Shown: piece by piece, positions 6,001-57,000 of the stretch
Numbering within the stretch: position 1 is the stretch's first letter
How the letters are laid out: every line of letters begins with the position of its first letter
Assembly: GCF_020382885.2 (NCBI RefSeq)
Contig: NC_058498.1
Span: 19,125,001-19,189,000, forward strand
DNA: 64,000 nucleotides
Source: Scatophagus argus
Lineage: Eukaryota; Chordata; Actinopteri; Scatophagidae
Reading direction: 5' to 3'
Notes under the pieces: generated by a model
Seen by the model: the letters and a program-made list of their open reading frames with translations, nothing else
What the model was told of the DNA's origin: nothing
Database searches by the model: none
Position numbers and translations under genes: made by a program

Positions 6001-6712
6001 CAACAGTCTTTGGTGCTTAATTTTTGCTGAAAAGGAGAAACCGCTAAATTCTGCAGATTTTCCAACCCAACACAGGAAACCCTCACACTTTGATATGATG
6101 AAAAAAAAAACATGATGTGAAAATGATTGTGAAAATCTGATGGAAGGACTACACATAGCACCACAGAGGTAAGGGTTGAAGCTCTCTGTATCCCTACCAC
6201 AGGTGGGCTATGGTTAAAGCGTGCAGCTGAGCAGCCAGGACATGCAGAATCCGTACACTGTCTCTGCAGTCTGCGTCCACGCGTCCACTGTTGAGCAGCA
6301 GCTGAAGTAGAGCCAAATTCCCCTTCCTCGCTGCCCAAAACACAGCATTAGCCAGGGGTGTTTCCTTCTGGAGGGTAAATACACATAACAACCACTGACC
6401 TTAAACCACCATTAAGGTATTATACACACTGACAGGAGAGTAAAGCCAATAGAAACAGACTATAGAGTGTCATTTGCAGATGCAGAGTTTTAAAGGTTTT
6501 AAGTGTTCGGATATGAACAACCATCAGTAATTCCAACGGATCAATAATCAAACACATACACTTTCCCTCTCTTTCAGGAATGGGATTCCAATTGTTTATT
6601 TATTTATTTTGCATCAAACAGCACGCCCACAGATATATTCAATGCAGGTGTGAAATTTAAGTAGGACCACCTGCCATATGAAACCCTATGATGCACACAC
6701 GTGCACGCGCAG

Positions 6713-29989: not shown

Positions 29990-32900
29990 TTAGTAAATGT
30001 CAGGCAGCTCACTGTACTTTCTGTCCCAGTATCCACCAGAAAAGAGCCAGTCCTGGGAGCTGGTGTGGGGGTTTTGCCCCTGCTGAAACCACCTGAAAAC
30101 ACAGCAGACACACATCAGCCTAAAGTTTAATCTTGTATCAAACCAGCATGTGCAGCAGCTACTATCAGGACTCAAACAAATCAGAGAAAGCCAGGGAGGA
30201 ATGTCAGGCATGCATATGGGTAATTTGCTATGAAGTGACATATTTTGTCATTGGAGGGAACTCACTCCAACGAAATTTGTTCTCTGCATTTAACCCACCC
30301 AAGTGACGTGCACACACACACAGCAAACCCGGGGCAGTGGGCGACCGCGTGCAGCGCCCGGGGAGCAGTGGGGGTTAGGTACCTTGCTCAAGGGTACCTC
30401 AGCCATGGACACCGGGACAGGGAATCGAACCAGCGATCCACCGGTTACGGGTCCGACACCCTAACCGCTGATCCACGACTGAGATTGGCTGTTTAGGTTT
30501 TCTACTTTTGACTAAAATTAACTTTATTCTGTTTTTATCTTTGTTGCATAAAAGTAAGGAATGAAATGATTTGGAGTAGGGCACTCCCATGGCATTTCAC
30601 TCATTTCATCAAGGGGCAAGAAATGGGGCTGTCATGCTGGTGGGAGGGAGAGCAGATTAATCTCTAAAACTGTGATTTTGTCATTGGTCAGAAGAAGAAA
30701 GAAATCAGAAGAAAATTACAGAGTCAAGGTTTAAATTTAGAGAATAAAAATTGTTTAGAAAACACTGAGACTGCAAGGACAAGGGATCATGTTGCACATT
30801 TCAGGCACATCATTCAGACAGCGCTAACCTTGGACCCAGGGCAGGACTCCTTAACATCAGAGAGAGGGAATGCAACAGAAAAACAAGACAGATGAAGGTA
30901 AACTGCAGATTTAGCTCCAGGATTTCACAGCAACAAAGTATGAAACAGTGTAGAAAGAGGTGATAAATATCACAGCATTAAAAACTGAAATAGTATATGT
31001 ATTTCATCACAATGTAAATTACAACCATGCAAGCTGAATTTAGCAAGTCAAACAGAGGATAAGCTGACCATGACAATGTTAAAGATAAACATACAGTATG
31101 GATCAGCATTTTGGGTGATACGCTTTAATATTTTCTTGAGATTGATACTTCTCTTCTGTCTGTATATGAAGCTACTCCCATTGGCTGGTTAGCGTAACTT
31201 TGCATGGAGGCTGAAAACAGGGAAACAGTTAGCCTGACACTCCCACTTGTCCGATCAGGCAAGTGGGTCAGAAATCTACTTGCCTGCAGTCAACTTTAAA
31301 TTGCCCCCGTATAAATTTTATCTATTAGCACTTATCAAATAACAACAAGGACTAAAGTTAACTGTCACATTTTATCTTATCCACCTTGCTCTCAGACTTG
31401 CTGCAAACTGCACAATAGTTGGAGATGCAATCACATCTTCTAATGCCGCCCAAATAAACTCCTGTTTACAGGATAACTGAAATGTCTGCTTGTGCTTCAC
31501 CTCCTTAATGTCTTTACCTGCCACCATTTTCTCACAAGTGTGTGTTTGGTGCTGCACCAATAAGTGGTGAAAAAGGTAAAAAAAAAAGTAAGAAGTGGTT
31601 AAATACACAACTAAATAAATAAATCAAAAATGGGAGTTCTAAACCAGGAAAAAAAGAATTTTGTCATATCTTTAAGAATATCATTATAGCAGAAACACCC
31701 TGAAATACTGTGATATTATTTTAGGACCATGTCACCCACCCCTACTGCATACATTAACTGATTACATGAAAGTCTAAGCAGCGAAGAGAGGAGAACACTT
31801 TCACTAACAGCCTCACCTCGTCTTCCACTCTTCATCAGATTTGGAGCGGTTTTTGCGAGCAGCTCTTTGTTTCTCCTCAAGCCTTTTCTTCTCCTCACTT
31901 GCAAGGTCTGTTGGAATAATGATATTGTGGAGTTTCAGGCTGCAGTGAGAGTGATTTTGTTTGTTTTGAGCTCCAGTATGACACCAACAATCATTACCAA
32001 TGTCACCATTCTCCATGGCTCGTATGTCCGGTCTTAGCCTGCAGTCAGTCTGAGGAATGACCCCCTCCATCTCCTTATGCAGCTCGTTAAGCTGCATTGC
32101 AAAGGTCGTGAAGCTGTACATCTGCAGTTAGAGAAAAGATTCATTCTGTATTTTAGAACATTACAAACTCAAAACACATCCTGATTTTGAGTCTACTTGC
32201 TGCTGAAAGCGAGTAATCGGTCAGACCTGGGCAGAGTTGGCTGGTCTGGGTGCGATTCTCCACAGCAACTGGCTGCCAGGAATCACCTCCACAGTGTCTG
32301 CAGCTGGAGAAGGAGCCTCATCCTGACCCTCACTGCAACCCTGAACACCAGAAACCAAAAGTATGCTGCTCTGAAAAGTCTACATATTAATGATGTTCTC
32401 TGCATTACTAAAATCATTTTATATGACTCTGTGCCTTTGACCGTGAAAAACTTTGAGATTTTACATCAAATCAGTCATCAAATTGCATTATGCACATCCT
32501 GAATCACAGTAACAAACTGATTTGATTTCCTGCTGTTCAGTAGGAAACTCTTCACACTGTTTTACTGACTTTTTTGTCCTCTGCCCCCTTCTTATTGTTT
32601 TTCTTATGCGCTTCGAAGGCAGCAGGGTCAATGACATACAGGCACTCTGTCCACTTCCCATAGAGAGCACACTGCTTCTTTTTACTGAGGAAAACACACA
32701 TACACATAAACACCAGATTATGATTTCAGTCAGACAGAGAAAAACATCCTGCTGCATGAGCTAAGGATGGCTAACAAAAGCTTTCTTGAAACTTCAGCCA
32801 AGTGAAACATTTTCAGTTAAAAAAAAGTCCAGAGTCACAGGCGAGTATGAAGGCTCGTGTGCTGTCATTTATGTTCATCTGTTTTTTCTGTCTTTATCCC

Positions 32901-35900
32901 CCATCTCTTAACTTTTATTTCGCATTAAAGACCATGTCTGGTACAATGTACAATGGCTCGTACACACAATCATTAACTGTGTGAGCTGTTAATAAATCAT
33001 TTGCAAGATGATTTGATTTTGTAATGTGTTCTGAGGTCACATTTAAGTTAGAAATGTGCTCAGAGGAATGCACATTGGAAATCCACTTAACTTTGTAGAT
33101 CCTGATTTACAAATGAAGCATATTTAAACAGCTTACTGAAATTCCAAGGAATACGAACTGTGACATTCATGAAATCCAAGGGTGCTGGTTGCAGTATGCA
33201 AAAAGCGTTCACTATTTCCCCCAGCATTCAAGACAAGAATAGTAAGTCTTTGTAGCAAAGATAACTCTACTTAAATTACTTCTGATTGTCATGCATCAGT
33301 ATAAGCCATACCTTTTATCCAGAATATACCCTTCAACCTTGTGCAGTTCCTTTCCAAAAAGGCCACATGGCTTGAAATTGAGGAAGCACCTTTCACCAGT
33401 TCTAGGAGAAAAAAAAGAGGAAAAACAGGATATTATCCTCTCACTCTCTGCTGGCTGAATCATGCAGGACTTCCTTATCTGCTCTATTTCCTCCTTGATG
33501 ATCAAACTTCCTCAAAATATTTACATTGACAGTGTCAGACTTGTCTATTTGACGGATATGCAAAACTTAATGTTCTAATCATTATATAAATGTAACATAC
33601 ATGCATGTAAACATAAATGGTACCCAATATATATATACAAACATTACAGTCGGTGTGTAATTCTTTTGTTCTCTTACCTGTGATTGATCACCTCCACATT
33701 TCCATACTGCTCAATCCACAGCTGGCCCACAATGATGTTGTGAACACAACAAGTGGGATTTGTCCATGTGTAGGCTTCGCCGTGCCTGAAGACAAAACAA
33801 TGACTTTAAGGGGAACATCACCGATTTTACTTATCAGCTTGAGGCAAGAGGCTCAAGGCTGGGACACAGCTGGTCAAGTTGCATTGTAAGTAATGTAGGC
33901 ACCATGTTTTGACAAGAACAAGCAATGTGTGGAATAAAAAGATAACATTTATGGTTTTAACGCACTGATTTCCAACAATATTATTGGAGTGCAGTGCTAA
34001 ATCAGTGGAGAATGCACACAAATTAATAGACCAAAGACACAGAGGAGTTCTTTGTTCTTAGTGCAAGCACAGTCACAGCTCTTCCCAATCAAATTTATTT
34101 GTCTTTTTAAGAAGAGGAACAGTTGATTGATTTTTCAAAAGAAAATATTATATTAAAAAAATACAATTAATGGTTTTTTAATCAGCTAAGAAGTTCTCAC
34201 TTGGGCAGCTCCAGCGTGATGACACCTTTCGGCTCTGCTTCCACGCTCTTGCCCCAGAACTTGAGTTTGGGATAGATGGATCCGTGAAAGACAAAATCTT
34301 GCTTCAGGCCCTCAGCATGGAAGGTGCTGACCGGAGGGTGGTGGCTCACCTGCTCTGATATGAGCCGGAAACCCAGATCCTCTCTGCGACAAACAGAGAG
34401 GCAGCAAGCATCATAGCTGTGACATATTAGGTAATGTATTTAGTACGCATCAGGGTCAAATGTGTGCTGTATGATCCCGCTTACCTGACCAGCTCATAAG
34501 TCTCTCCTAGCAGTGGGTTGAAGGGTTTACCTGTCCGCTCCCACTGCGAGGCCACAGCCGACACAGCAAATGCAGCCACACACTGCCAACAGCAGAAAAA
34601 CACACATTCCAGATCATACAGGTTAGACTCAAAAGCAAAGGTATAAGTCAGTTAAAACATAGCTTTATATGAGAAATTTGCAGGATGTTACACAGCACAC
34701 TACCTTCATCCTCTCAATAGAGTCTGCAGACGTGTTGGCCTGATGGATGAGGTAAGTGTGCTCCATGTACTCTGTCAGACGCTGCAAGAAGCTGAGTGGC
34801 TCATTGAAAATCACTGGCATTGTAATTTTGGAGAGCTCCTAAAAAGACATTCAGATTAACTGAGGGACGAGGTTTCATTCACATTCACACAGCAGTCCTA
34901 TGAAAGTGTAATATTCATGTTAAGAGTAGAAAAGGCCAAGGGAATGCTGGCCTTCTTCAACTCAAGTATACACACATAATTTTATATCACTTTGGACAAA
35001 ACTGTCTGCAAAAAGAGTAAATGTAAATGTAGCGTTGTATCAAACGTATCCCTCTCTGGTTCTGTGGAGCAAAGACTTAGATTAAGATTAAGATTAAGAA
35101 GATTAACAAGAATAAGGGTTATTTTTAAAGCTTTAATGCTGTGCTTTACTGTACATTGCAGCCTTTAACTAATTGCTAATGTTAGTAGTGCTTATAAGAC
35201 AATGCTAACATATTTCTGTTAAGCAGGTATAATACCGTGTTTACGATTCAAATATCTTTTTTTTTTTTTTGCCATTTGAGGGCAGTGGAAAGGGTGGAAA
35301 CAAACCGTAAACTAAACACTGAGACATCATGATTGATATTGTAAATTTGTTAGCTAACAGTAGGCACTTTACACATCCAGTAGTTTTAGAGAAACATTAT
35401 CATTCATTTCGAGCTGTGCTTCTGGTCTCCGGATGAATGAAGGTCCAATATTCACCCTCTAAAAATCCATGCGGCATGCTATGGCTGAAAATGAGAGAGA
35501 TGAGCAGCCAGACACCTCAGTGGTGCACTAAAACTCATGTAGCCAAGGGGGAACTGCAGATTCAGGGGACAATTTTCTATAAGTTTATACCCATGAGTTC
35601 CACCTTACAAAAAATACTGACTGCAGCTGCATATGTGGTCATGAAGAGGACACATTAACTTTTGACTTGATATTGTTGGATAAAAAGTCATGGAAACACC
35701 ACAGTTATTAAAACGAACCCTGAGGGACATATGAGTGTTTATACCTAACTTCATGGCAATTTATTTTGAAGTTTCCGTCAAAATCACAAATGTCAACCTG
35801 GTGGTAGAGCTAGAGGAAAAGTAAGAGAATCACCAAGGTTATCTGGATTCATCCTCTGGTTGACCGACCGACTGACTCAATAACCAACACTGCTGGCATA

Positions 35901-38900
35901 GCTAATAAAAAACGATATATGAATAACATTCTCACCATCCCAATGCAGTTTCTCAGGATACTCCAAATACTGAAGTCATTTCTTGAAAACATTGGTGCAG
36001 GTAGGCTGGTTCTGAAACAACACACACAAGCAAACAATTGCAATGCTTCTGTTAGGTGTGTATGATGCAACGACTTGTGCAAGTTTCATGAGAATCAACA
36101 CACCAGACACAACAGCCATAGGCGTCATAATCTATTTGAGTGAATGTAGTCAACGAAAGACTGTAATGTATTGTCTTACACACTGGAGCAAAGCCCAGAG
36201 AGACAATCAACACCGGTATCAAAGATGACAGGCAGCCTTGGGAATTTTCCATCTTCAAGTATATATACTTGATACTAACAAGTAATATACTTAAAATCAC
36301 AAGAATATAGCAACTTTCATATGATAATAACTGAATTTAAAAACAAATCAAATAGTAAACTCCAAAAGCTGACTGGAGGGACCGGACAACTTTGAATCAA
36401 TCTGTAGACTGATTACTGCATCGCACTGTGACCTTATCAATATTTAAAAGCCCCAACACAGAGCTCAGTTCTTTCAATACAACTCTTTCTTTTTCCTTTG
36501 CCAGACAGGGCCTGACTCTGAATTATTCACAGTATGAAGTGGAAAGACCTGAGGGAGGACATGAAAATTAAAAACAAAGAATTGAGAAAACAGTGAGAGC
36601 CGGGTGGGGAATTAAACAACCTGACATTAATATCTAGGATACGGTCCAGCAAGAATAAAACAGCAACTATAACAGTCTGACATGAGGAGAAGGGCCCTTT
36701 GTTGAGGTTGTCCATCTTTTGATGAATGGTGGATAAAAGCATGTCAGTAGTCCATTTAGGAAATGGTGGGTGCATACAGCACTGCCGACCTATGCTTTGT
36801 GATCCCGTTGGGTTGAGTCTGGTCCTCGTCTCCATGGTGATCCTCCTGCAACATACTGGAGGGGCTGCTGCAAGGGATGCTTAACATGACAGAGCCTTCG
36901 TCCTCCTCCTCGTCCTCCTCAGAGGAATGGCTGGCCACTGTCTCAAAGCCACTCAGGGAGAGCTCTGAATCTGATTCTGACAGAGATGGACACATGAAGA
37001 CAATTCAGTGTGACCACAAAATGCTCACAAAGCTCTAGTCACCGTTCATTTAGTATTCAATAATTAGTAGAAGAATATTATTTATTGTAGGACATTTTTT
37101 AAAAGAGGAATATAATCAAATTAACTTCATCCAGTACCTGTGGATATCTTTTATAGTGTGATGAGAAAGCCATGAGAACAGATATATTTTCAAATCAAAT
37201 GGGTGGGTATATCAGGCAATGTTAGATTAATCAACATATTTCATATTCATTTCTGTATTTAGCATACTGTCTGATGAATAACTAAATAAGAAAAAACTTC
37301 AGTTCAGAAAAGCCTAAGATACATGTCGGAGGCCATGTAGAAACAGTGTTGTTGTTACTCAGTTTGTCCACCAGAGGGCAGTGATAAGTTTATTTTTATA
37401 CTGTTAGATGTGCTATTTAGAACACATTTTGGTCACAATTTTTGACACAAAAAAATCTTTATGAAAAATTTTTGTTTTGATAATGTTTTCTTGTGGAAAG
37501 TTAATATCCTCACTATAATGAAATCAGATTTCTTTAACTCTCCAACACATCAAAACTGTGTAGATCACAATAAAAATAGTGAATGGTAAGCTGCTTTGGA
37601 TAACTCTGTTAGCTACATAAATGTGTTGTAAAGTTTTGTAATGAACAATGCTATTCATGACATATTTCAGATTCACTGGAATTTAAGTGAATAATTAGGT
37701 TAGAGACCATGTAAGATGTCATGTGTCTGTGTTAAAAAGTGGCTGAGAATGATCATGCATGCAATGTTTTCTTTGCATGCTATCAGCACAAAATCGCAAG
37801 TTAATTATTTTGTTATCACAAGAAAACAAAAGGTCGTTTCCTTGTATTCATCAGAGATCAGAGTGCCCTGCCAGCATGCATAGCAGTCAACTGTAGCTCA
37901 TTTATGCTGAAAATGTCCGATGGAAGAGGACCCACTATTGACACAACAGACTGTACTTCAGTCAAGCTTTAACACGGGCAGCAACTGCATCGTGTCTTAC
38001 TGATAACATTCAGTTCAGTGGGATTCCAACCCACGGCATCAAAATGACTGCAGCCCCAGCACCAGACCACACTACAGCACAGGTACACTTCAGTGATCCT
38101 GATGAGACTGTTTATTTTCTGATAAATCTGATAAATGACTAATTTTCTTGAAATGTCAAGAAATTGGCCTTTGGTTTTTTTTTAAGACAACAAGATAAAC
38201 TAATCCTTTATCATGAGAAAACAAGCCTTATTATCGAAAGCTAAACTGTGATTAACATGTGATTTTGAGATTTTCTAAACCATCAAGACTGTTTGTGTTA
38301 AAAAAATACTCTTAGATGATATGTTGCTATCAGATTTTTTTTGAACTGCCAAACATCAACAGACCAATAATAAAGTGGTATCAAGTGTCAGGCTGTAATG
38401 ACAGGACTGCATAACAAATTAGTCACTGAACAATCATTATCATATTCATGTCACGTTTGCTATTCATCACAATAGTAATGACAACAAATTTTCAGCTTAA
38501 TTAGTATTAGAAAAACATGTTGATTCTATTAATATCTTAAGTACACTATTACCATCATTCAATTGGTATTTTTTGCTTTTGCACTCATGTTATATGATTA
38601 GAATTTCATTTATTGAGAACTGCTATATCAATGAAGAAGAAAACAATATATCACAAACATCACTATCAAAACATACATCATGCTCTAAACCAGTGAATGC
38701 AGATCCCTTATGCAGCTCTAGCATTTCATGTTCATGTCAGCCTTGACACATCCAAGTTCCAAACTTCTCTTCAGCTACAGAACTGGTGATTTAAGGTGCT
38801 AAGATTTTGTTGTCATTGACGAAGTTTAAATAAACAGAACTAAAAACAAGCACAAACTTTTGTGAAATTTTCAGTTTTGTAACCATTTTTGAAAAAGGCC

Positions 38901-41900
38901 TCAGTCATGCCGATTTTCTTTATGTTACGACACCAAGCAGCTTTTCCACACCAAAGGCACTCGTTCATGTGAAAAGGCTTCGGTTATTTCAACACAACCA
39001 GGCAACATTTGCTCTTACGTCACGCCTGAGGAGCAGTAAAACATACTGAAGACATTCAGCGGCAGGTAAAAGTATTCCAGTGTCCTATTGGTAAATGACA
39101 GAGTAGTGAGTGTGAGCGGTAGCTTGTCACAGAATCTCCTGAGCGTGCGTGATCACTTGTCAACTCACCGGACACAGCGTCGTGGAACTCATCTTCACTG
39201 AGGGCGCTCGGCAGTGAGGATCCCTTGACGACGGATTGCTCAAGTTCGTGGTGCTCCGTTGCGAGAGTCTGCAGCGCTTCAGAGAGGATCTTATTCTTCC
39301 CTACCTCCTGCTCCAATTTCAGACTGCGCACCTGAGCTCACCACACACAAACACAAACAAACACACAAGCACACACACAGAAAGAAAGAGACTAATCACT
39401 CACATACTGTATACACTAACATTCTATCTTCCACCGAGACAACCAAGTGTTTTCACAGCCTCCAGAATTTTATTCAGTCTGTCATAACAAACAGAAACGT
39501 GTGTGACTATCAGACCAGCTGTGATGGCAGTGGGTCTGCAAATAAGCAGCCTGTTGACTGACTGATCCTCTCCAGCACTATCCACTCAGCATAGGACCCA
39601 GACAGACAGAGACAAAGCTAACAGGGGCGAGCCATGTTTATCTGTAATGCAGGACAGCTGCCTTGACGCTGGCTTCTCAAATGGCCTTGCGGAGAACATA
39701 ATTCCTGTGGAGGACAGTGGATCAAATGACAGGTAATGGACTCAGGTATAAACCATCAACCAAGCCCCCCCTTTTTACAGAAGGCACGGGGGTTGATAAT
39801 ATGAAGATGTGTTCACTTTTTAAGATGAAAATCTTAACTTCATTGTTTCCATTGATAGTCTAACAATGTGTAAATACAAAGTATGGGGACCACAAAAGAG
39901 GCAGTGTTTTGTTTTGGATTGTCAGAGAAACATTCACAAGATATTAACCAGGACCCGGGTTTAAGTGCTGTATAATGACAGAGTGTAGTTCACTCGCCAT
40001 CCCTGTAATATAGTGAACTTTAAAGAGGAAATTCCTGCTGCTTGACCCGCACACAGGTGGTGCAAACCAGCGCTGCAGGAGCTGGAAGTGATTATCTATC
40101 CTTCACGGGGGAAATGAAACCATGCTGCTTTATTCAGACTTCATACTATCATGTGCAGACCGAGACATACAGTGCATGTTTGAGTTATCCCTATTGAGAC
40201 CAGGCCTATTCATGGTGACAGCTCTGAGATCCTGTGAGCCTTTTATCGTGCGCTCTGCCACTGCAGATCGCTGTTCAAAAGGCTGCACAGCTGAGCGATT
40301 GAGGCCTGGCACAGGTGTAAGCCCTGAAAGCATTGGACTCGCTGTTAAACTGAGAACATTCAAATGGTTTTTGGCAGCCTTTGGGTACACACGCCATGCT
40401 GTCCCTTCTTCAGATCCCAGAGAAATTCAACTATCTTGTTCATAGGTCAAAGCTGTGTTACTAGCATGAGTGTGTGGACAACACAAAAAACACATCTGAA
40501 TTGATTTTTACCAGTATTCTCGGATTTCAGTGATTCAAGCATTGGTCTTCAATAATTTTATCCACATTAGTATGCAGATTTCTTGTTTTAGCTGAGGAAT
40601 ATGACGCTCGTCAGACAGGAAAGCGTCAGAGAACTCTGTTCGTTGTGAAATCTTGCCAGGGTGAACGCATCTTAATTCACATACTCAACGACACAAGTGT
40701 GCATTCATCGCTGCAACTGCTGCAGTGCAAGAAAATCAGCAGCACTACTACACACCTGTTTAAACAATCAACAGAGAGTAGACAGTGACAAAGAGTAAAA
40801 CTGAAGACGCTCTTAGATCTCTAGTGTTGGTTTAAGATTTGTGTCACTGTGTGTAATTTCTATAAAACTTGAGAGAGGAGATTAGGATTACAATGAAAAT
40901 CTGATATACATCATATCATCATTGAGTCCCCTTGTTAAAGCAGCTCTGAGCATTAGCAGTATTAGCAGCAATATCAAGATATATAAGACGAAATAAATAT
41001 GCCCAAGAATTGGTCACATTGTTTATATTGTGGGAGGCCATTCCACACAATGTTGAATATAGAGTTGCGGGTGACTCTGGGCCTCTCTAACTATAAAACA
41101 TTTCTTAACTTTCATTTTTAATTCTTCAAATTAACATTTAAACACATAATAAAGACTACAACAATGTATAAAATCTGCTAAATATGATTCTGTAGGTTAC
41201 ACATACATTAATTCATTATTATGACACAACAGGCATTTTATAAATATGCAAGAATTTAGTTTATAAATATCTTTTCTAAACATTTAGAATGGAGTCCCCA
41301 CAATCCAGCTTTATGTAATGCAGATGCAGTTGCTGTCTAATTTCATAGCCACAAATTCATTTCCCATTGAGACTAGAAGTACTTAGAAAGCAACGCAGGT
41401 AAGAGAGGTAAGAGATGTATTGGTAAACACAATCCACAGGAAAAAGCACAAACATGATAGAGGATATTGTTTCATTTATGTATGGGATACCACTCACCAT
41501 TTGTGATAAACCGTTGCAGGCAAATAATAAGCTTTCTTGGCATTAAAAGTGTCATAATCAACCAGATGCATCATTTGCCTTCCCCAGAGTATCAGTCATT
41601 TCTGTTTCAGTAATGAAAACACCCAGTCAAAATTGGTTTCCAAAATCCAGAATTGAAATTCTGGCACCCTGTTTTTGCACGCAAAGGATGAATTCATATT
41701 AATTAGGTGAACATGCAACTTTTCCTCTAGTGCCATCATGAGGTTTATTAGTGAAATGTTGAGATGAGTGTTGGGTTGATCGGATCATGTCCTCACAGGC
41801 TGAATCGCAATAACTTTGGTGATCCTCTAAGTTTTAATGTTGCGCCATCATCAATTTCACCATTTACCAGTTGAGTATAAATTACTATAAGTGTTACGTT

Positions 41901-44900
41901 TACAAGCCATTCTTAACTTCACAAACATCAACAAGCCACACAGAACCTCAGGAAGACAGAACGTCGTGCACTGGATCTTATGTGACTCACCATGTATTTA
42001 GTCAAGTGATATATACATTATCAGAGAATTTATGTACTGGGTTGACACTCGTTGTGAGCTATAAGCGGTGCCATCTATTTTCTTTCTTGGAGGGATGTAA
42101 TCTATCCACTGAATCCTTCCATTATAATCAAATCCATTGAATCACACACAAAGAAAACCCATCTGACAGCGTATAATCACTGCACTCCACCGAGCTGCTT
42201 TCATAAGAGGTCTGAATTGTGTCGTGCTTTCTTACGAAACATATTTTGCTTTTACATGTTTTTCTTTAAAAAAAAAATCACTTCATATCTGAGGGTCACA
42301 GCCACAAGGATCATGTTGATTACATTATTTGAAGTCTGTATATTTTTAAACGGTCAGTTAGCTCAAATCGCAAAAGAAATATGTTTAATTACTCAGCCCC
42401 CACGGTCTCCACGGAGGCCATGAAGATACTTTATCAACATTTATGCGTCTGTGCAGACACAATATCTTGGTTACACACCCCACAGATATCAAACAAACTA
42501 CTGACTTGAGTCATTTGAGTAAACTTACACAACATGACTCATGTTTTATGGGCTGTAGAGAGTAAAATGCTGCTAATGACTGGTAGTAGACAATGATAGA
42601 TAAAAACCTGACTATTAACTGCTAACAGACGTTAAAACAAGGACACAAATTTGCCTCGGGGAAGCTGACACTTACCCCTTCCTGTTTGGAGAAGAGGCTC
42701 AGACAGACTCTGAGACTGCAACTGGTTTCGCTGGACAACTCACAGATTTCTTGCATTTTGTGCAGTATGGCGGATGGGAAACCTGAGGGAACAAAGATAT
42801 CAAAGAGGGACCTCCTGCCCAAAGAAATGACTGAATGAAGTCAAACAAGCTGCTTATAAAGCTGAAGAAGCTCACATGCATTTGAAGTGTTTTTTTTTTC
42901 ATGCACTCACAAAAACAAACAACAAGGACAGCAAACCTCTAATGACAAAAACAGATGGTGCAGACTCTTAATTATGAGCATTTCAGACATTGTTCCTTCA
43001 GTACAGTGCATTTAAATCTGCTTGATGACGCTTGTTTTCATTTCCACGCTTGGATGGTTATGTGAGGTTTCTCCTCCATTAGGTATACTTGAATATATAT
43101 AAAAAAAGCTATTTAAATCTCATATAAATAACAGGTTTTACTTTCTGCTGGCCCATCATTTTTCATCATGGACATGAGTGCTGCCACCTCCTCTTCCAGT
43201 TTCTTCTGGCTGGCCTCGGCTGCCTGGTTACAGAGAGAAGAGAGGAGACTGCAGATGAACAAAGGCAGTGCAGAGTGGGAGGTCTGGGGGGTTTCTAATT
43301 ATGCAAAAACACTACCAATCATTATGCTGCTAATTATGGATTTTCTTGTTTACAGCCACCTGTAGTGAGTCTGATAGCTCCCCAAGTGACATCATTTCCT
43401 CTTCCTCCTCCTCACTACCCTGCTCTTGGGAGCAGTAGTGTGTGCTGTAAGCTGAGTGCTCTTCCAGTGCATCCAGCCATACCTATAAGACAATAACAGA
43501 TTTTGTTCTTGGAAAGCCCTTGGAATGATGAGCTTACACATCGAATGGTTCTGAAATATTGAGGTTCAAACTTTACACATTCTAGATATCAGTTGTCTAA
43601 CAGGTACCGTGAAGGTATTTTAAATATACAGTATAATATTAAAGTCCTGTCACATTTTTAAATTTGATTTTCTGAATTAGGTGGATCACAAATGGAACCA
43701 TCTGATATCCTCAACTCAGTACTGAAAGTTTCTCTGCTAAGACGTGACTGAAGGCTGAACTGTCTTTGGGATGTGATTTGCAAGCCAAAAGAAAGTCTAC
43801 CACTGTCATACTATGAAAGCGGAAACAGCATGGAAATTTAGCTTTTAGCATCGAGCTGCAAGTAATAAATCAAAGCATCTGTATGCGTCAAAGTTCAAGA
43901 ACAACACTCAGAACTCAGATGTGTTCCTGCTCCTTTTTTTGATCTTAACACATCTCATTAAAATCAGGATTAGACCTGATCCTGAAAGTGACTACACTGG
44001 CTGCCTCACATTTAGGCTTAGTGCTTTAACTTTTCAGCTGTAATGAGTAGGCAGTGTTTACACTTGCTATACAGGTGACAAAAAATAAGCATTACTGAAA
44101 GCTTAAGCTTAATTTTAGCTAAATCAAAAACTCACAATGTCAAATTCTAAATACCTGAGTGCACACACAGACATATATTTGGCTGTATTTATCTTAACTG
44201 CCAAAGTTCTACAATAGTTTTACAATAATGAATACAATAGACAAATGAAAACATTTTAATATAATTTTAATGATAATATTTAAAGTTTGAAAAGGGAGCT
44301 CTTCTGATTACTAAAACGGGAACTATATTAGCACATAAATAAGTATTTTGTAAGTATGGCAGAGTATGGTAAAGGCAAAGCTACACATGATACTGAATTT
44401 TTAAAATATTTGTGGGTCGCCAAGTCCAGTTTCCTCAGCTTTTTTGCATGCAAGTCTCAACTAAATCAAGTCTCACAGCAGAGTACAAGTACAAGTACCA
44501 AGTCACCAGCTCTGACAGAGCCCTTGTTGAAACAAACAGTTCCTACTTTGTTTAAATGCAGAAATTACTACTAAGTAAAGTAGTACTAAATTACATTCCT
44601 TAAGGAATGTAAGGTACAAAGATTTTCACTGACAAATTTGAGTTGATAATATAATTAATAATAAATAATAACTCTCTGTGGTCTTTTACATTTCCGACTG
44701 AACTACCTGGCATTATCCCCAGAATTCAGTTACTAATAATAACATTAATTTGTACTCAAACTGAGTAAAACTAAGCTGTGTAGCTAATGTTAATAAGCTA
44801 GCTGTCTGGTATAGTGGCTATTGGTAAAAATGGGTGTTTGAGAAAGTTAAAAAAAAGAGAAAAAAAAGTAACTTTGAGCTTAGTTAGAATTTGTATCAGA

Positions 44901-45042: not shown

Positions 45043-45083
<41 letters not shown>

Positions 45084-48000
45084 CAGTAAAAGTAAAAGTA
45101 AAAGTAAAACGAGACCTAAGCAAAATGTTAATACACTGTCAAAGAAGGTCAGGTGAACTTTTACTACATTGACAGAAGGAATACAACGTACTTTTCTCGC
45201 TGCCTCTGGGTCACTTTTAGGTGACACTTTGAAGTGATGCACACTGTCGTCAAAGCACTTGAGCGTAAAAAGGCAGCTATCTTTGACTCTGATCTGGAAA
45301 TGATAACATCAAAGACATTTTCTTGTGCAAAAGTTAAACCCACATAAATGCAACACTGAAGTCAAAAAATGTGAAACATTAGCTTACCATGCATTGGGCA
45401 TTTGTGATTTACAGCCTTGCCTTCTGACATTGGCAACTGCATCTGACCTTCACATGAGATAGAAAGAGGTTATATTCTCCTCAGATCTTTTCTTTTCAGG
45501 CTGTGGTCTTTTTGGACAGATGAAACATTTTCAGTGGCAACACAGAAGACACAATCCCTTCATTTTCCAATTCATCTGTCACTTATACCACCTTTCTAAT
45601 CAAATGCATGCAAGACTTCCACTGATCTGTTGCGCAGAGCTTTCCAAATGCATGATTCAAGAAGCACAGCCAAAGACGACACCTACTGTTTAGGATACCA
45701 GGATAAAACTCCATCTTGAAGGACGACCCAAAAGGAGCGCCAACCAAAAAATCTGGAGCTCTGCAGGATGAAGAAAACAGAAGAATGAGCGATGTGATTT
45801 TCAATGTTTCTATTACTGCTCAGTCTTTTCTGATTGGCTGACAGAGAGGCAGAGAGACAGCAGCACCTTGAGAGAACACAGCAAATTGTAAATACAGGAA
45901 CGCATTTGTCAACACTTGTGGTGCATTTAAAAATACATTTCGAATGCTTAAGACCCAGGCACATACAGAAAAGCTGAAGCGAGTTATGTACGTTTGTTGT
46001 CTCACTGATTAACTCAGCAGGTGAAAATGAAGTCAATTTTTAGGGTTCCCCAATGCTGCCATCACTTAATTTGGAAGCTGCCGTAATTGCCAGTTTTTGC
46101 CTTTTAAATAGCACTCAAATCAACATCCAAGTGGTAATTACAACTAAGACTATATTCAGCTGTGGATCAATACACATTTGGTGTGCTATTGAGTATTTAC
46201 AGCATCAGAATGGTGTATGAGGGAAAGATTCAAGACAAACTACACTGGCTGTGTTCATTGTATACAAAACAACATGTCACCCAGTGAAACAGTGAGGCTC
46301 TCTGTGCTTATAATAATTTTTGGATGGAGGAATGAGACGTACTACTTATATGTGTAATGGGTCATTAGTGGTAAATAAACAGAATTATCACCCAAGTCTG
46401 CAGTGTTTGCACATTATTTTAGATTTATGGCCAGCAACATGCTGTTTTGGTTCACTCTGACGGTGCAGCAGCAGCAGACACTGGCATTTTACAGCAAAAC
46501 TGAATGTACGCCCATTCAGTTAGGAACATGCTGTTGAACATAATGGAACATTTAGCTGCTACAGAGGAGTAGAGAGAGATGTAGAGAGCGAAGAGCACAA
46601 CTCTGAATGTAAGTGTTGCTCCATTTCCACTGGATACACTGGTTGCCAACATGTTAGCCACATTCACTAAAACATGATAATGGGTCAATTATTACACTTT
46701 ATTTTCCTCTGATTCTAAAGGGCCAAAAATCAGTTATTGCAGGTTTATCTTGTTAACTTGCAAGTGGCTAAAAGGCTCTGTTCAGTAGCAAATGTAGCTC
46801 TGGGCCTTTTGTCACTGCATATCATAACGAAATAAGTACAGGTGTGACTGATAACATTAATAATGGCGGCATTTTAAGTCTTCATTAAATTTTTCTCCCA
46901 AGTCATCACTGCTGCATTGTTACATTTTTCCAGTTGTCAAATATTTTAATGTTGTGATCATTTTCATGTCTGGTGTTAAAGTGTTGGGTGGGAGATGTGA
47001 GTACGTCTCTACTGATATCGACTACAAACATGATCCCTGCAAGATCTAATCTGTGGTGTTTGATTAACTCAGTGTCATGCAGTGATGGGAAAGTATTTCT
47101 CATTTTCCTCTTAAGGGCTGAGATGCTTTGTGAATAACTTTTCCCTTTACAAGGATCTGGTCTTAACTCTTAATTGTTTCTTGAAATTCTTGGAAAACTA
47201 CAAGAACTATAAGATCAAGATTTTTCTCAGAATTTGATCACCAGGAGCAACTCCTTGTACTAGGAAGCTTCATGAACACAGCAGTTACTTTTCAAAATAG
47301 AAGTACAGTTTCTTTTTTAAAACAAAAAAGGCTACACAAGCCAATCACAGTCCATCCGTGTTTTAGCCGTCATGTTTTATCCTTCATTTTTAATTTTTTC
47401 CCTCTAAAACAAAATGACTTAGACAGCATGCGCATTGTACAGTGCTTTATGTGACAACAATCATCTTAATTAAAAACACACTGACAGCCTCTCTACACCA
47501 GCCACACTCCACGATAGTAACAAATGAACAAGAACACAAAAAAATTCCTGCATTATTAAATTGAATAGCCTATCTTTAAGTGTAGCAGTAATAAATAACC
47601 TTTGTAGTGCTTGATTTACTGTAGCTAATTCTTTGATGCAATACAGAATAGGTAGCTTCAACAATTTGTTTAATTTTTTTTATGTTAAAGTTTTGTACAT
47701 TTAACTTACAAACCAAATGCCCAACTGAACCTTATTTTTTACTTAAACCTGGTAATAAGTTACACCACTATATTGTATTGCAACATGTTTGTGTTTGCAT
47801 GAGTTTTCTGTATTTATATTTGTGTCTCTAAATGCAACATAGTAAATGTTTATGAGCATATGAGCATAGTTTCTCCATTTGCCCGTGTGTTCTCAATCTG
47901 TAATGGATAGGGCTTTCTCAGGAAACACAGATTATAACTTCCAAACTTTACCTTAAAAAGAAGTCCTTCGTACTTCTTGACATGGCGGATCATACCCTAA

Positions 48001-50827
48001 GAACAGACACACAGAAGAGAAACATGAAGAAAGTAAAAAGCAAATCAAAAAACAATTCCAAATACACTATATAGAAAAAAGAATTGGGAGACCTGACCAT
48101 TACAGCAACAGGGACTTTAATGAAATCGCATTCTAAATACACAGACAGCTTGGCAGCTATAGCAGCTTCCACTCTTCTGGGAAGGCTTTCCACAGCATGT
48201 TGGAGGGTTTCTGTGGGAATGTTTGCCCATTCATGCAGTAGAGACTTTGTCTCTGTTGCAGTTCATCCCAAAGGTGTTGGATGGGGTTGAGGTCAGGTCT
48301 CTGTGTGGGCCAGTCAAGTTCTTCCTCACCAAACTCATCCAGCCATGTCTATATGGACTTTGCTTTGTGCACTGGAGCACAGTCATGCTGGAATAGAAAA
48401 GGGCCTTCACCAAACTGTTGCCTCAAAGTTGGAAGCATAGCATTGTCCAACATGTCTTGGTATGCTGAAGCATTAAGATCTCCCTTCACTGGAAGTAAGG
48501 GGCCCAACCCCTGAAACAGCCCCATCCCAATACTTTTGTCTATATAGGACAACTTTAGGAAGCCTAGCACAAGCTGACCACTCACTCGGTGAATGTTGCC
48601 TTCAAGGACCTGCTTCATTGCTGTATCACTAGCCAGGTCAAACACTGTCTGGCCTGTGAGTTATAGACACAGAAATTATTAGACAATTGGGACTTTAGTA
48701 CAACAGAAAACACATACACAGAGGACTGTTGCAAATTTCAAGGAGTCATTTATATCTAAACCAGCCACATCATAGTTGTCACATTTCTTGCATTGAGAAT
48801 CATGTTCCAGTCATAGAACAAAAAAAATAGATGTTCAATTCTGAACACTTCTGCAGAAGCGATAGGTGCTTACTTGGTATGTTATTATTTCTTTCAATGA
48901 AGAAATAGACAGCCTTGACAGACAGACCTTGTGAACACACTTAAAATTGTCTCTCACTCAACACCAGACAGAATATTTTTGGCATAACCAGCAATCTTAG
49001 AGGTATGGAGCAGTATCATTTGTTAAAGGATGAGATGAGATGATGTGATGTTATTCTATATTTTCCTTGTATGATATTTCATTGCTGATGTTCTTGTTCA
49101 TGGAGTGAAAAGGGGTCATTCAAGATTGCCGGCTCTGGCTGATGGGTCTTACCGTTCTTGTTCTTGATGTTGGGGCTGGCTCCACTTTTGAGCAGCTTCA
49201 GGGCACATTGCTTCTGGCCGCGATAGGCTGCACAGTGCAGCGGAGTGTTACCCAGCAGGTCTGTGCAGTTGATGTCTGGAGATTTTTTCCTGCTGAGCTG
49301 TGACAAACACACACAGGACAAAAACAGATGGGTTCTCTGATCCCAAATGTCCTCTAGGTCTTCATTATTCTGCTACGAATAGAAACACGACACTTTGATT
49401 TCTCACTCCGCGTAAAAGAGCTGGAATAGTAAATGTTTTTCCATTTACAACTGTGCTGCTGTCATTGAAAGGACATAGTCGAATACATACCTGTCTGGAC
49501 TTGTGAAGATATTTGAGAATACAGCTCACACTGACAATGTTAACATGCTTATGGTTGAATCTTTACCATATTCAGCATCTTAGTTTAGCTGAGATGAAGA
49601 TTAGATATTTCAGTTAAAATAACTAAGGTCAACACTACAAGAAAAGTAACCGAAGGCATTAGGATTCTCCCTCTAGGACCCATGAATAACCACAGACAGT
49701 TTTGTGGTAAATTCAATACTATGATCGTAGAGATGTTTCATTCTGGACCAAGGTGGTAGATCAACCGACTATCACTGCAATCAGCACTGCAAGTCATGCT
49801 GCTGCCATGACTACTAAATCTGAATTGAACTGAATAAAACACCCAGAGTATGGCAAAAGTTACTAGAGAACATTACATACACACAAATCAAACATGAGCA
49901 TCTGGCACTAACCAGCTGAGTTAGAGTTGAAAAGTCTCCTTCCCGTGCAGCTTCTAAAAGTTCCTCCTCCAGTTTCCTCTCCTCTGTTCTCTCAGCCGCT
50001 GATAACAGTAAAAGGATGGGATTACACATTATATAAGCAACTTGTATGAATGAATGTTAAAACATTAAACATGGAGATTTGGTAAAACATGTCTCTGTGA
50101 AATGACAATGTGTCTCTCTCACCTTCTAACATGCTTCTGATCTCTGGATTTTGAGTGACATCTTTGGGAATCTGTGCTGTCCCATTGATGACAGTAGCAC
50201 ATGCATCATAGTGCAGCAGCAGCATGACAACCTCCTGATCAATACGTGATTGATTGATGATTGATTGATTGACTGAATGGACGAATAAATGCATGCACAA
50301 AATCATACTATCAACAAAGAGACGAGAAGAGCACAGGAAAACTTCAAACCTGAAAAACTCATAACGCATTAAGGTACCTTTCTTCCTGTGAAGGCAGCTT
50401 TGTGCAGTGGTGTATCTCCGATGTTATTGGGCAAATTAACGTCTGCACCTGCCTGCAGGGGGTAACAACACACACACACACATTAGCCACACACTTAATC
50501 AAAATCTTAAGCAAAAATCTCAAACTGTTGCCCCAAATTGCTCTACCTTCAGTAATTCTTCCACTACGTCTTTGTGTCCAAAGTAACAAGCCAAGTGAAG
50601 AGGCGTCCACCCCAGGTTCGACTTTTTCTTGCCTGAGGAACAGTACAAACTGTGTTACACCACAAACTATGATCGACATTATTCCTGTGCCTTACTCATG
50701 TACCTTTGCAGTTTATGTTGATCTGCTTCTCTTCCTTTATCTTGGACATGAGGAGCATCTGAATCCCTGGCAGATCACCGTTCCGGGAGTATTGCAGAAA
50801 CTGCTCCTCTGGCTCCAGCTCCTCCAT
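29990..50827 (-). CDS. osbpl1a: Oxysterol-binding protein-related protein 1 (ORP1), with one frameshifted exon in the long form
   Basis: ORP1L sits on late endosomes, binds Rab7 through ankyrin repeats, senses cholesterol and contacts the ER through VAP. Exons on the minus strand run from 50704-50827 (start MEELEPEEQ) through 50547-50632, 50378-50452, 50123-50234, 49913-49998, 49153-49297 and 48586-48653 (ankyrin region). The PH domain uses 47952-47996, 45687-45760, 45388-45447 and 45192-45293; a coiled-coil linker uses 43360-43482, 43142-43223 and 42676-42782. Then come 39169-39331 (FFAT-like EFHDAVS), 36790-36976, 35936-36011, and the ORD exons 34704-34838 to 29990-30092, including EQVSHHPP in 34201-34383. 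The protein ends SELPDIY. All phases agree except exon 45388-45447 (60 nt), where 1 or 4 nt seem missing and a stop follows near residue 292. With four bases added the protein would be 959 residues, against about 950 in human. Confidence 0.93.
30241..30482 (-). mobile_element. tRNA-derived SINE, minus orientation
   Basis: Read on the minus strand, the element begins near 30482 with CAGTCGTGGATCAGCGGTTAG and has a perfect polymerase III B box, GGTTCGATTCC (plus 30421-30431). It continues with GAGGTACCCTTGAGCAAGGT and TGCAGAGAACAAATTTCGT. I recognise it as a widespread teleost SINE. It lies in the last intron of osbpl1a, in the same direction as the gene. Confidence 0.7.
35180..35885 (+). repeat. 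Dispersed repeat copy 1 in osbpl1a intron (GTCAACCTGGTGGTAGAGCTAGAGG type)
   Basis: Key phrases are GACAATGCTAACATATTTCTG, TTCATGGCAATTTATTTTG, CAAATGTCAACCTGGTGGTAG, AGAGGAAAAGTAAGAGAATCACC and GACCGACCGACTGACTC. They occur in the order known for a common percomorph dispersed repeat. It ends about 50 bp from the first ORD exon, 35936-36011. Related copies lie near 49500-49810 and 51410-51760. Confidence 0.55.
36977..39168. other. osbpl1a intron with a perfect CTCF-type core
   Basis: This 2.2-kb intron sits between the FFAT exon and the acidic-linker exon. It is AT-rich and holds no recognisable reading frame. CCACCAGAGGGCAG at 37368-37381 fits the CTCF core consensus completely. The internal ORP1S promoter of vertebrates is expected somewhere upstream of the ORD exons, and this intron is one possible place. 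I could not identify an ORP1S first exon. Confidence 0.4.
39332..42675. other. Large osbpl1a intron, no gene seen
   Basis: This is 3.3 kb of AT-rich sequence. A CA/AAAC-rich stretch (39343-39380) lies next to the exon. A GC-richer patch around 39980-40440 has several chance reading frames on both strands without family resemblance. I see no RNA gene or transposase. Confidence 0.4.
43483..45191. other. osbpl1a intron containing the poly-C tract
   Basis: The intron lies between the end of the PH region and the coiled-coil exon. It is mostly AT-rich and unremarkable, with a 40-base C homopolymer and an AGTAAA repeat at its left-gene end. No coding content is recognised. Confidence 0.5.
45043..45082. 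repeat. Homopolymer of 40 C (G on the gene strand)
   Basis: An uninterrupted run of 40 C bases is followed by GCAGTAAAAGTAAAAGTAAA repeats. It lies 110 bp from osbpl1a exon 45192-45293. In the pre-mRNA the tract is poly-G, able to form G-quadruplexes. The true length is uncertain because such runs are error-prone to sequence. Confidence 0.9.
45388..45447 (-). pseudogene. osbpl1a: PH-domain exon of osbpl1a carrying an apparent frameshift
   Basis: The exon begins after AAG (acceptor) and ends before GTAAGC, both good splice sites. In frame from the preceding exon it reads SDAVANVRRQGCKS, clearly homologous to the human PH-domain loop. The following exon, 45192-45293, is open only in phase 0 (IRVKDSCLF), which requires a length of 1 modulo 3 here. 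The last part of the exon in that phase reads TNAQCM, so the frame changes around 45403-45408, at the TCACA just after the CKS codons. As written, the spliced frame meets TGA at the exon junction. It may be a real allele or an assembly or base-calling error. Confidence 0.75.
45761..47951. other. osbpl1a intron within the PH domain
   Basis: This 2.2-kb intron holds a dispersed repeat copy at about 46400-46750, sharing a 23-base block with 21376-21398. The rest is AT-rich. No coding content is recognised. Confidence 0.45.
48067..48547 (-). mobile_element. Internally deleted Tc1/mariner element
   Basis: The ends form inverted repeats: CTATATAGAAAAAAGAATTGGGA at 48067-48089 and the reverse complement of CTATATAGACAAAAGTATTGGGA at 48525-48547. 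On the minus strand the interior encodes only the C-terminal part of a Tc1 transposase, in broken frames (GPLLPVKGDLNASAYQD, FLFQHDCAPVHKAKSI, PDLNPIQHLWDEL, ESLPRRVEAAIAAK). The N-terminal DNA-binding half is missing. The 481-bp element lies in the osbpl1a intron between exons 48586-48653 and 47952-47996, only 38 bp from the former. Because the transposase frame joins the exon frame upstream, a naive ORF call fuses them. Confidence 0.88.
49490..49810 (+). repeat. Dispersed repeat copy 2 in osbpl1a intron
   Basis: GACAATGTTAACATGCTTATG, TTTACCATATTCAGCATCTTAG and GATGTTTCATTCTGGACCAAGG followed by TGGTAGATCAACCGAC match the start and end modules of the family seen at 35180-35885. The middle appears deleted. 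Confidence 0.5.
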
Positions 50828-53287: not shown

Positions 53288-54009
53288 TGTTTTAACTAGT
53301 TTGGTCCTTTGAAGTGAAATCCAGGGTGTTCAGGCAGAGTTGCTCTCACTCGGGCCCTCTGTGAGGCTGCATGTGACGTTTAAAGCCCCTCTAAGATCGT
53401 TTCCTGCAGCTCCACTACAACACAGTCACACTACAACAGCGCGGCGCGTATGATGAGCCGACACATCGCACCGTCACTCACATAACACACATCCCCTCAT
53501 TTACTGTCGTAAAGCTCGTCGATGGCGAAATATAGCTGTCTCACTCTCACACACTTCCACACACACCTCTGTTTTCTGTTTACACTGACATCAGCTGATT
53601 TACCGAGAGCGGAACTCGACGGGGCAAAACGTTTAGACCTTTCAAAATAAAAGCCCTGACCCTTATTTCATACGCAAATGCCCCGCGACGTGTGAGTCAC
53701 GCGTACTCTTCCAAAAAGTTAAAATGACAAATTCACAGCTAGGGTACTTTGGCTACTATGCTACGTTGCTTTTTATCTCTTGCGTCGTCTTTGTCCAAAT
53801 ATTTAGTCCTTTATTGAGCGAACAGAACCCGGAAGTAAAAAGGTGTAGCCAATCAGCTCTGCCCTGGAAGAAATTTACAGGTCTGCACTTGCATGCTGGA
53901 TCTCATCTCAACATGTAGTTCATGTGCTAGAAGTTTGATCTAACCTGCTTTTTAAAAACTGATTCATGTTCATATTTTAATAGGTAACACTTGATGATGA
54001 AATAACCAA
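53288..54009. promoter_or_regulatory. Divergent promoter region of osbpl1a (minus) and impact (plus)
   Basis: The interval between the inferred osbpl1a first exon and the impact ATG is under 0.75 kb, and its GC and CpG content rises around 53430-53700 (CGCGGCGCG, CCCCGCGACG). A minus-strand donor, ACA|GTAAGTG, at 53287/53288 is a good candidate 3' boundary of the untranslated osbpl1a first exon. There is no obvious TATA box in either direction. Human OSBPL1A and IMPACT have the same head-to-head arrangement. Confidence 0.5.
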
Positions 54010-57000
54010 ATGGCCGACATCATAAATCCGGAGAATGAGGGAGACCTTCAGGCTCAAGTAAGCTATTATTTTTTGCTTTGACAACCTCTCTGACAAAGTT
54101 AAGACAAGTTGTCTTTAGTGTCTGTCCTCTCGTAGTATTTTGATGTGGCCTGCAGAAGGCTAAATAGCAGGTCTAAATGTTGGCAGGTGTAGCAGAGGTC
54201 CATCAGCAGACAGTTTACAATGGTTTAATATTGATCTCAAATAGTATTTAGAATAAATCCAAATCTGAGCCAAATTCTTTATCTGTCTGAGAAACGCAAT
54301 GCAGGTATAGACTAATTAAAATGCTCGAGCACCTGTGCACATACCTTAAAATAAAGAAACACACACACACACACACACTCAATGGAGGTTTCTCTCCCAA
54401 GGTGTCTGGATTCATTAACACATATCCATGTGCTGCTGGAAGCTCAGCAGGTGCTGCATAGTAGACACAGATACCACACATTAACACAGTGCAGCCTGAA
54501 CAGCATGAAAAAAGACAAGAGGTGGACACAATTAACACCATCACAAGAACTCATTATTTAACTTGTAGTGTTATGTGCTAAAACGTGTGTGTCTTTGTTG
54601 GAGTTTAGCCCCACTTAGTGCCTTTCATATCTTGTCATTACATTCGTGTCAGTTCAGGGTTTCTGACAAATAAAAACCTGGTGATCTTTGAAAAGCCCAG
54701 GAGGTTCAGAACACTTAGTGCTGTCCAGAAGGTATTTCCATAAGACACACGTGGTAGACATGCTCTGTCAGGTTGCACAATAAAAGATTTTAACCTCTTT
54801 TACAAGTCTCAGTTACATTATAGTATTAAGTATATACTATTAAGTGTGGTATTATAGTGCAAAATCTTTTTTGCTGTTTTTTATACAACACAAAGAGAAT
54901 ATTAATCTGTAACCAAACCTAACCTAACCCTGCCCCTATTAGGGGAAAATCTAAACTAGAATGTAACATCAGGATAGACAAATAGTTTCACTTCATATAA
55001 ATTGAGCGTACACACACCCGCACGCGCACACACACACACACATATACACACACACATACACGTGTAGCATGTTAACTTAAAAGTTTGAATCCTCCATTGC
55101 GTCACTGATCCAAATGTCTCGATTAATTCATAATTAATTGTTATTTTTTCCACATATTTAGATTGAAGAAGTCGAGGCTCTGTCCTCCATCTATGGGGAT
55201 GAGTGGTGTGTTATAGATGAAGCTTCGAGAATATTTTGCATCAAAATATCCAATGACTTGGAGGAGCCAAAACTGACAGCATGTTTGCAGGTAGAGCAAA
55301 GGAAAATCTTGGATATGAATCCCAAGTGTCCAGCATTGCAGTTTGTTTGTAATGCAGTCTATGATTTTTTTCTTATTGATCAGATAATTCTCCCTCCTGA
55401 TTATCCGAGCATATCCCCGCCAATCTACCAGATCAAGTAAGTCTACTTTGCCTTTCAAATTTAATCTTGCGGTGATGTGCTGAATTGATAGAACAACATC
55501 CCACTCAAAAACCCACTCATCGTCCTACTCAATAATCCTCCATTTGTTTTCGGCTTTTGTAGTGCAGCGTGGTTGCGAGGCCCTGAGAGGGCCAAATTGG
55601 CAAACAGTCTGGAAGACCTCTATGTGTGAGTGCTTCTTGTAATTTCTGACTTCACAAGGAGGTACTGTAGAGTGATATCAGCCACAACAAAAGCTTTTCA
55701 TGGTTGTTTCCAGAGTGCAGTTTCTTTGTAGTCTGTGTCTCTTAGAATCCCTTCATATGGAAATATTTAAATTTCAACAGGGAGCACATGGGGGAGAGCA
55801 TCCTCTATCTGTGGGTGGAAAAAATTCGAGAATTCCTCGTAGAGAAATCCCAGAGTTCAGAAGCAGGTGAGCTATGAAACATTAAATTCATGATTGAAGA
55901 ACACACTTACTCGAGCAATTTGTAATGACTTTAAATGACATTTGATAGATTTATGAGTCCAGACACAACAAGAGCAGGCTTTTCACTGCACTCATTTTTC
56001 ACTGAGCTCCGTCCCCTTACTGTTACAGCTTACTGTTTCTACGCTTGTCAAGCTGTTTGTTCTCATGTGGCACATAGATGGTTTGGGGACAGATGCTATC
56101 ATTTCGAAATTTGTTGTGTCAGGATGTTTCTGGATGTCTCCCATGTTTCCAGATGCTTTGCTTTAAAATAAAAACCCTGTAAAAGAACCTTGAAGGTATG
56201 ACATGCAGCAGTTTCTTAAAAACACAATGTTTAGGCTCATACTGTGTATTTTGAGACTCTCTAGAAGTTTATAGTCGTGTCTATATTTGCAGAGACTCTG
56301 ACTTCTGCCTGTCTTTCCATAATTTCTTAGTACTTTGTTGTGTCAAGATGTTTCTGGGTGTCAGCCTTTGTGCAGGGCTGCGTAGCCTCCAGCCAATAGC
56401 AGATCAGGACTGTCTGTGTCTGCCATAAAGAGACAAAAGAGAAAGAATCTCAAAATTGTACTTAATTTTGTACAATACTTGAGTAAATGTACATAGATAT
56501 TCCACCACTGACCATGGAATTGCAATAGAAAAGAGCATACTATTATGCTATACTATATACTAAGTAATTTGGAAGAAAGATTTATGTTTTTATCCTCTCA
56601 GTCTCAGTCTACAGTCTGCTTTTAAAAAATAAATGAATTTTAGGATGAGGAATTAGTTTGGCAAATGCAACACTATCTAATGCAGGTTGCATTAACGCAG
56701 CATAGTGGGGCTGCTGGACGGTAGACATATCAAAAGAGACCAGAGCCCTCTGCGAAAATTGGCAATGTATATTCCATACACTATGTGTTTGTTTGTTTGT
56801 TTGTTTGTTTTGTTTTTGTCTTTTAAGCACTTGGTTTACCATTTAAATTCTATGAATGCCAGGTATTATTCTTAACACAGCGCCACACGCGTCGCTTCAT
56901 CATGAAGAGAAATCCAATGCTTGACGGACCAACTACCGTGCCTAGTTACGGTTGCTAAGCTCTGACTGGACAGTCTCTTTATGAGGGAGGGGTCTAGCAA

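Follow-up and report, generated by a model that had tools for sequence, protein, structure and literature searches.

Human OSBPL1A encodes a long protein, ORP1L, and a short one, ORP1S, which comprises residues 514-950 of the former (437 aa) according to PMC6381110. In the targeting of ORP1L to late endosomes, the ankyrin repeats bind Rab7, the PH domain aids membrane binding, and the FFAT motif reaches VAP, as described in PMC6363164 and PMC8264513. Cholesterol esterification was reduced in ORP1L-null HeLa cells, and in double-knockout cells the re-expression of either ORP1S or ORP1L helped cholesterol exit from late endosomes, with both together helping more (PMC6381110). Damaging variants of the gene are also on record in people. 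For example, eight occurrences of probably damaging OSBPL1A variants were counted among low-HDL participants, 116 of the 120 damaging variants in the candidate genes were heterozygous, and an OSBPL1A nonsense variant in people was cited, all in PMC9126845. The duplications and losses of the OSBP-related family are covered in PMC10243569, and a word search of the main text of that paper found neither "fish" nor "teleost". Among the matches listed for two title searches (osbpl1a with zebrafish, and OSBPL1A with loss-of-function), no title dealt with the loss of ORP1L in fish; only titles were covered, and absence from the literature is not claimed.

The osbpl1a gene of Scatophagus argus

The window analyzed in this study is a stretch of 64,000 nucleotides on contig NC_058498.1 of S. 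argus (positions 19,125,001 to 19,189,000 of the forward strand). The genome comprises 570.7 Mb in 48 contigs of chromosome-sized pieces, of which the host contig accounts for 26.9 Mb. A complete osbpl1a (ORP1) gene of 27 coding exons was rebuilt from the letters of the minus strand, with its start codon at 50827 and its stop codon ending at 29990 (Table 1). All 26 introns begin with GT and end with AG. Because the exon ends were picked by eye and fitted to GT-AG boundaries and phase, this agreement is partly by construction, but the long open frames are not. Exons 1-10 were open over 291 codons, and exons 11-27 were open over 666 residues to the natural stop in a frame that differs from that of exons 1-10. 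Chance does not account for two open frames of 291 and 666 codons whose ankyrin, PH, and oxysterol-binding matches follow one another as expected.

Table 1. Coordinates of the osbpl1a features discussed in the text, numbered from the first letter of the window.
Feature	Positions	Strand	Description
Exons 1-8 and introns	47952..50827	-	Frame intact; runs from the start codon through the ankyrin region
Exon 9	45687..45760	-	First part of PH domain (SSRFFGWRSFWVVLQDGVLSWYPKQ)
Exon 10	45388..45447	-	60 nt; phase 2 at entry; exon that breaks the reading frame
Interval holding the frame break	45388..45408	-	Exon 10 positions 40-60
Single TCAC of exon 10	45404..45407	-	Slippage here possible
Exon 11	45192..45293	-	102 nt; second PH part (IRVKDSCLFTLKCFDD...); weak PH match, E 0.6
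Poly-C run of 40	45043..45082	.	Intron 11; poly-G on gene strand
Exons 12-15 and introns	39169..43482	-	ORP1L-only linker; FFAT-like EFHDAVS; frame intact
Exons 16-27 and introns	29990..36976	-	ORP1S-like frame with oxysterol-binding domain; intact

The downstream piece matched the oxysterol-binding domain of Pfam (PF01237) at 503.6 bits, and among solved structures this part was closer to ORP1 (5zm6, 819.9 bits) than to ORP2 (5zm8, 716.9 bits). The upstream piece carries ankyrin repeats (Pfam Ank), for which the ORP1 structure 8zq3_B (290.1 bits) ranked second to a designed ankyrin protein (290.4 bits). With ORP1 as its closest oxysterol-binding domain and with N-terminal ankyrin repeats of the ORP1 type, the gene is identified, as judged by sequence similarity, as ORP1 (OSBPL1A). 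Additionally, a stretch of the presumed human ORP1L sequence matched exons 9, 10-11, 12, 14, 15, and 17 in order.

The PH domain of the long form was not readable in one frame. Its first half matched PH structures (best 25.7 bits) and scored 21.0 bits with PF00169, which is under the cut-off of 25.1 for that family, and PF00169 was not listed by Pfam for the whole 291-aa upstream piece at E 0.001. For the second half, Pfam returned no PH family and only two unrelated families (E 0.2), and the only matches among solved structures were two PH chains of the ceramide-transfer protein (E 0.6 and 0.69). As the halves cover residues 12-51 and 66-103 of 5jjd, the frame break sits between them, in mid-domain. 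Pattern scans for the PH halves gave 26, 7, and 242 matches (the first and second halves in viral contigs and the first half in prokaryotic contigs), none of which was confirmed; with viral and prokaryotic collections scanned, these counts are uninformative on fish.

An in-frame methionine in exon 16 (36852-36854) opens a frame of 433 aa through the oxysterol-binding domain. The gene shares with human OSBPL1A the order of its parts, from the ankyrin repeats through the PH halves and the FFAT-like site to the oxysterol-binding domain, and an ORP1S-like in-frame start is likewise present in the fish. It differs from the human gene in the interruption of the ORP1L frame at exon 10. A putative FFAT-like site, EFHDAVS, which may bind VAP, was observed in exon 15 at about 39170-39190. 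The fish has a histidine at what we presume to be the human Y477 site. Residues Y477 and D478 of the human ORP1L FFAT are named in PMC4906411.

Position and size of the frame break

The frame break is confirmed in the sequence of this assembly. In agreement with the first-pass annotation, 26 of the 27 exons of the rebuilt gene were in consistent phase, and exon 10 alone was off. Both of its annotated readings were also reproduced: the entering frame reads QSDAVANVRRQGCKSQMPNA and then meets TGA at the junction of exons 10 and 11, and when read in the phase that exon 11 requires, exon 10 closes with ITNAQCM and the product continues as IRVKDSCLF. The demanded frame contains a TAA at exon 10 positions 37-39, which, together with the TGA of the entering frame, confines the break to an interval of 21 nt. 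The longest homopolymers in this interval did not exceed three bases. A query of 201 bases around exon 10 matched a single place in the genome, and hence gave no pointer to a misplaced duplicate.

The frame deficit known from the sequence alone is one base modulo three, which a consensus error at a single base would be enough to produce. In the window, 35 nt separate the CK and SCLF codons, and if the human ORP1L spacing is 13 residues (39 nt), four bases are missing. The 17 residues given earlier for this spacing were a misfit, as they would produce a deficit of 16 nt rather than four. The four missing bases claimed alongside them do fit a presumed human spacing of 13 residues, but from the sequence the shift is known only modulo three, and a deficit of one base would fit if the fish loop lacks one residue relative to its human counterpart. 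TCAC is present once in exon 10, as had been stated; replication slippage at this copy, proposed on that ground, is possible, but with the shift fixed only modulo three it is not established as the cause.

Routes by which splicing could bypass the break were scored with splice-site matrices trained on the 26 introns of this gene, which favours the annotated sites. At loose thresholds, 7 of 47 acceptor-donor-acceptor combinations around exons 10 and 11 kept the frame, each using at least one cryptic site. The combination with the best summed score cuts exon 10 after 45429 at a GT donor of 3.5, whereas the normal donor of this exon scores 8.6 and the weakest donor in use in the gene 3.4. Second in rank is a GC donor after 45421 (6.3) joined to an acceptor that lies 5 nt inside exon 11 (5.9). 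Cryptic acceptors of exon 11 at 45288 and 45243 scored 5.9 and 1.8, respectively, compared with 10.6 for the normal acceptor. A joint skip of exons 9 and 10 (913 aa) and a skip of exons 9-11 (879 aa) were both in frame, and either one removes much of the PH domain. Exon 10 skipped alone was out of frame, an upstream shift of its acceptor was blocked by the TAA of the demanded frame, and no candidate was found for a single replacement exon between exons 9 and 11 (25-199 nt, bounded by AG and GT, scores of at least 3, right phase, and open). A frame-keeping alternative splice, named in the first-pass annotation as what would overturn its claim, would thus on paper be available through joint exon skipping and cryptic sites, but not through a replacement exon within those limits.

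Explanations for the break

A local consensus or assembly error beside the poly-C run, in a fish that has a normal ORP1L, appeared, by a small margin, to be the most likely explanation, with a probability of roughly 0.45. The figures behind this and the other explanations are judgements and were not computed; they place a segregating allele second, a fixed loss third, and frame-keeping splicing last. The consensus carries one isolated frame-breaking indel in exon 10 with the rest of osbpl1a intact; under the error explanation, this indel would have arisen in the stretch beside the 40-base run. With several sequencing methods, runs of this kind can reduce both coverage and accuracy. The run is exactly 40 bases long and is separated from exon 10 by 305 bases, close to the 300 bp of the first-pass annotation, which had raised assembly error as its alternative. 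It was the sole C or G run of at least eight bases in the window and its 20 kb flanks (84 kb), and the longest such run in a 200 kb sample (20 stretches of 10 kb, one per contig, from 20 contigs) was 12 bases. Being exceptional against that sample, it lends the error explanation some weight. Furthermore, a single lesion, with the other 26 exons in phase and both frames open, is the pattern that an error, or a change of very recent origin, would leave.

Several observations count against an error. The poly-C run lies outside the exon at the distance given above, the 21-nt interval is free of longer homopolymers, the genome is in chromosome-sized pieces, and the exon 10 query matched one place only. 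A gap of four bases, if the human spacing of 13 residues holds, would also be an unusual consensus error. Titles in the literature yielded no base rates by which error and allele could be weighed. The preference for an error over an allele is our inference; if it is correct, the break serves as a warning for automatic annotation, which may report the gene as being of low quality or missing.

A real loss-of-function allele, private or segregating, in the sequenced fish is somewhat less probable than an error. Such an allele would place a premature stop in the ORP1L transcript, which would probably be degraded, and ORP1S, if made, would be spared. Seventeen exons lie downstream of the stop in the ORP1L message, which invites nonsense-mediated decay. 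The break is sharply confined, the remaining gene is open, and the ORP1S-like frame is untouched, all of which are in keeping with an allele. A deletion of 4 nt could have arisen at a short direct repeat, although slippage here is no more than a possibility. Damaging OSBPL1A variants occur in people, and with most of the candidate-gene variants heterozygous (PMC9126845), a carrier fish is plausible. Moreover, HeLa cells without ORP1L were obtained, and ORP1S alone helped cholesterol leave late endosomes (PMC6381110). The human variants resemble the present case in being damaging changes of the same gene; in contrast to them, the fish break hits the long form only and is known here from the assembly sequence alone. 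Individuals may carry many loss-of-function alleles, and an allele of this kind would be one of them.

A fixed and recent loss of ORP1L in the species or population, with ORP1S kept through an internal promoter, is unlikely. The first-pass annotation had suggested that ORP1L was lost and ORP1S retained. Part of this was upheld, since ORP1L cannot be completed as read and the ORP1S-like frame is untouched, but a loss at the level of the species is only a suggestion. The other ORP1L-only exons and splice sites look intact, and none of them contained a second lesion. The intact state of the other 26 exons and their splice sites argues against an old loss, and any loss would have to be recent. The in-frame start in exon 16, with 433 aa compared with the 437 of human ORP1S, is consistent with a fixed loss, as is a CpG-rich patch at 38901-39300 upstream of this start. 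The patch contains 21 CpG in 400 bp against a window median of 4, ranks second in strength among the CpG-rich regions of the window, and could mark an ORP1S promoter. However, it lies over coding exon 15 and the first part of intron 15, and this overlap makes it weak evidence for a promoter and may itself explain the patch.

It is improbable, slightly more so than the fixed loss as such, that the species recently dropped the full-length late-endosomal ORP1L and now depends on ORP1S, or else on an ORP1L deprived of its PH domain by the skip of exons 9 and 10. A real and fixed break would mean that the function of ORP1L is separable from that of ORP1S in a living vertebrate, and a true species-level loss would amount to an experiment of nature on the roles of the long form and of the PH domain. 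Compared with a lineage-wide loss, an error in the assembly or a damaged allele of an ordinary kind is the better explanation of the break. A pseudogene or long-standing gene loss was rejected, with one lesion only, 26 open exons, and GT-AG introns. Splicing that avoids the break and yields an ORP1L with a shortened PH domain is very unlikely: the two in-frame skips and the 7 of 47 combinations would allow it, but the normal donor (8.6) and acceptor (10.6) outscore the cryptic sites, neither an exon 10 skip nor a replacement exon provides a frame, and all forms that preserve the frame would have an impaired PH domain.

Other features of the window

In intron 11, AGTAAA is repeated about four times (45085-45109) next to the poly-C run. 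The strongest CpG region of the window (53301-53900) is located between the first coding exon of osbpl1a and an impact-like gene, and the CpG-rich sequence at 53301-54011 is possibly a promoter shared by the two. The latter gene is on the plus strand with exons past the window end, and its name is a presumed one, given by resemblance to a human sequence.

Two repeat-like stretches, at 48060-48560 and 62500-63650, were seen by eye to contain a similar phrase (cctgacctcaacc...cacctttgggatgaa) in opposite orientation, looking like the remains of one transposon family. A tRNA-like box, ggttcgattcc, was seen by eye on the minus strand at 30240-30490 in intron 26, and the surrounding stretch resembles a tRNA-derived SINE. 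Open stretches at 3874-6207, 10577-10912, and 24148-25752 resemble ankyrin repeats, a papain-type protease, and laminin G-like exons, respectively, and these names are putative.
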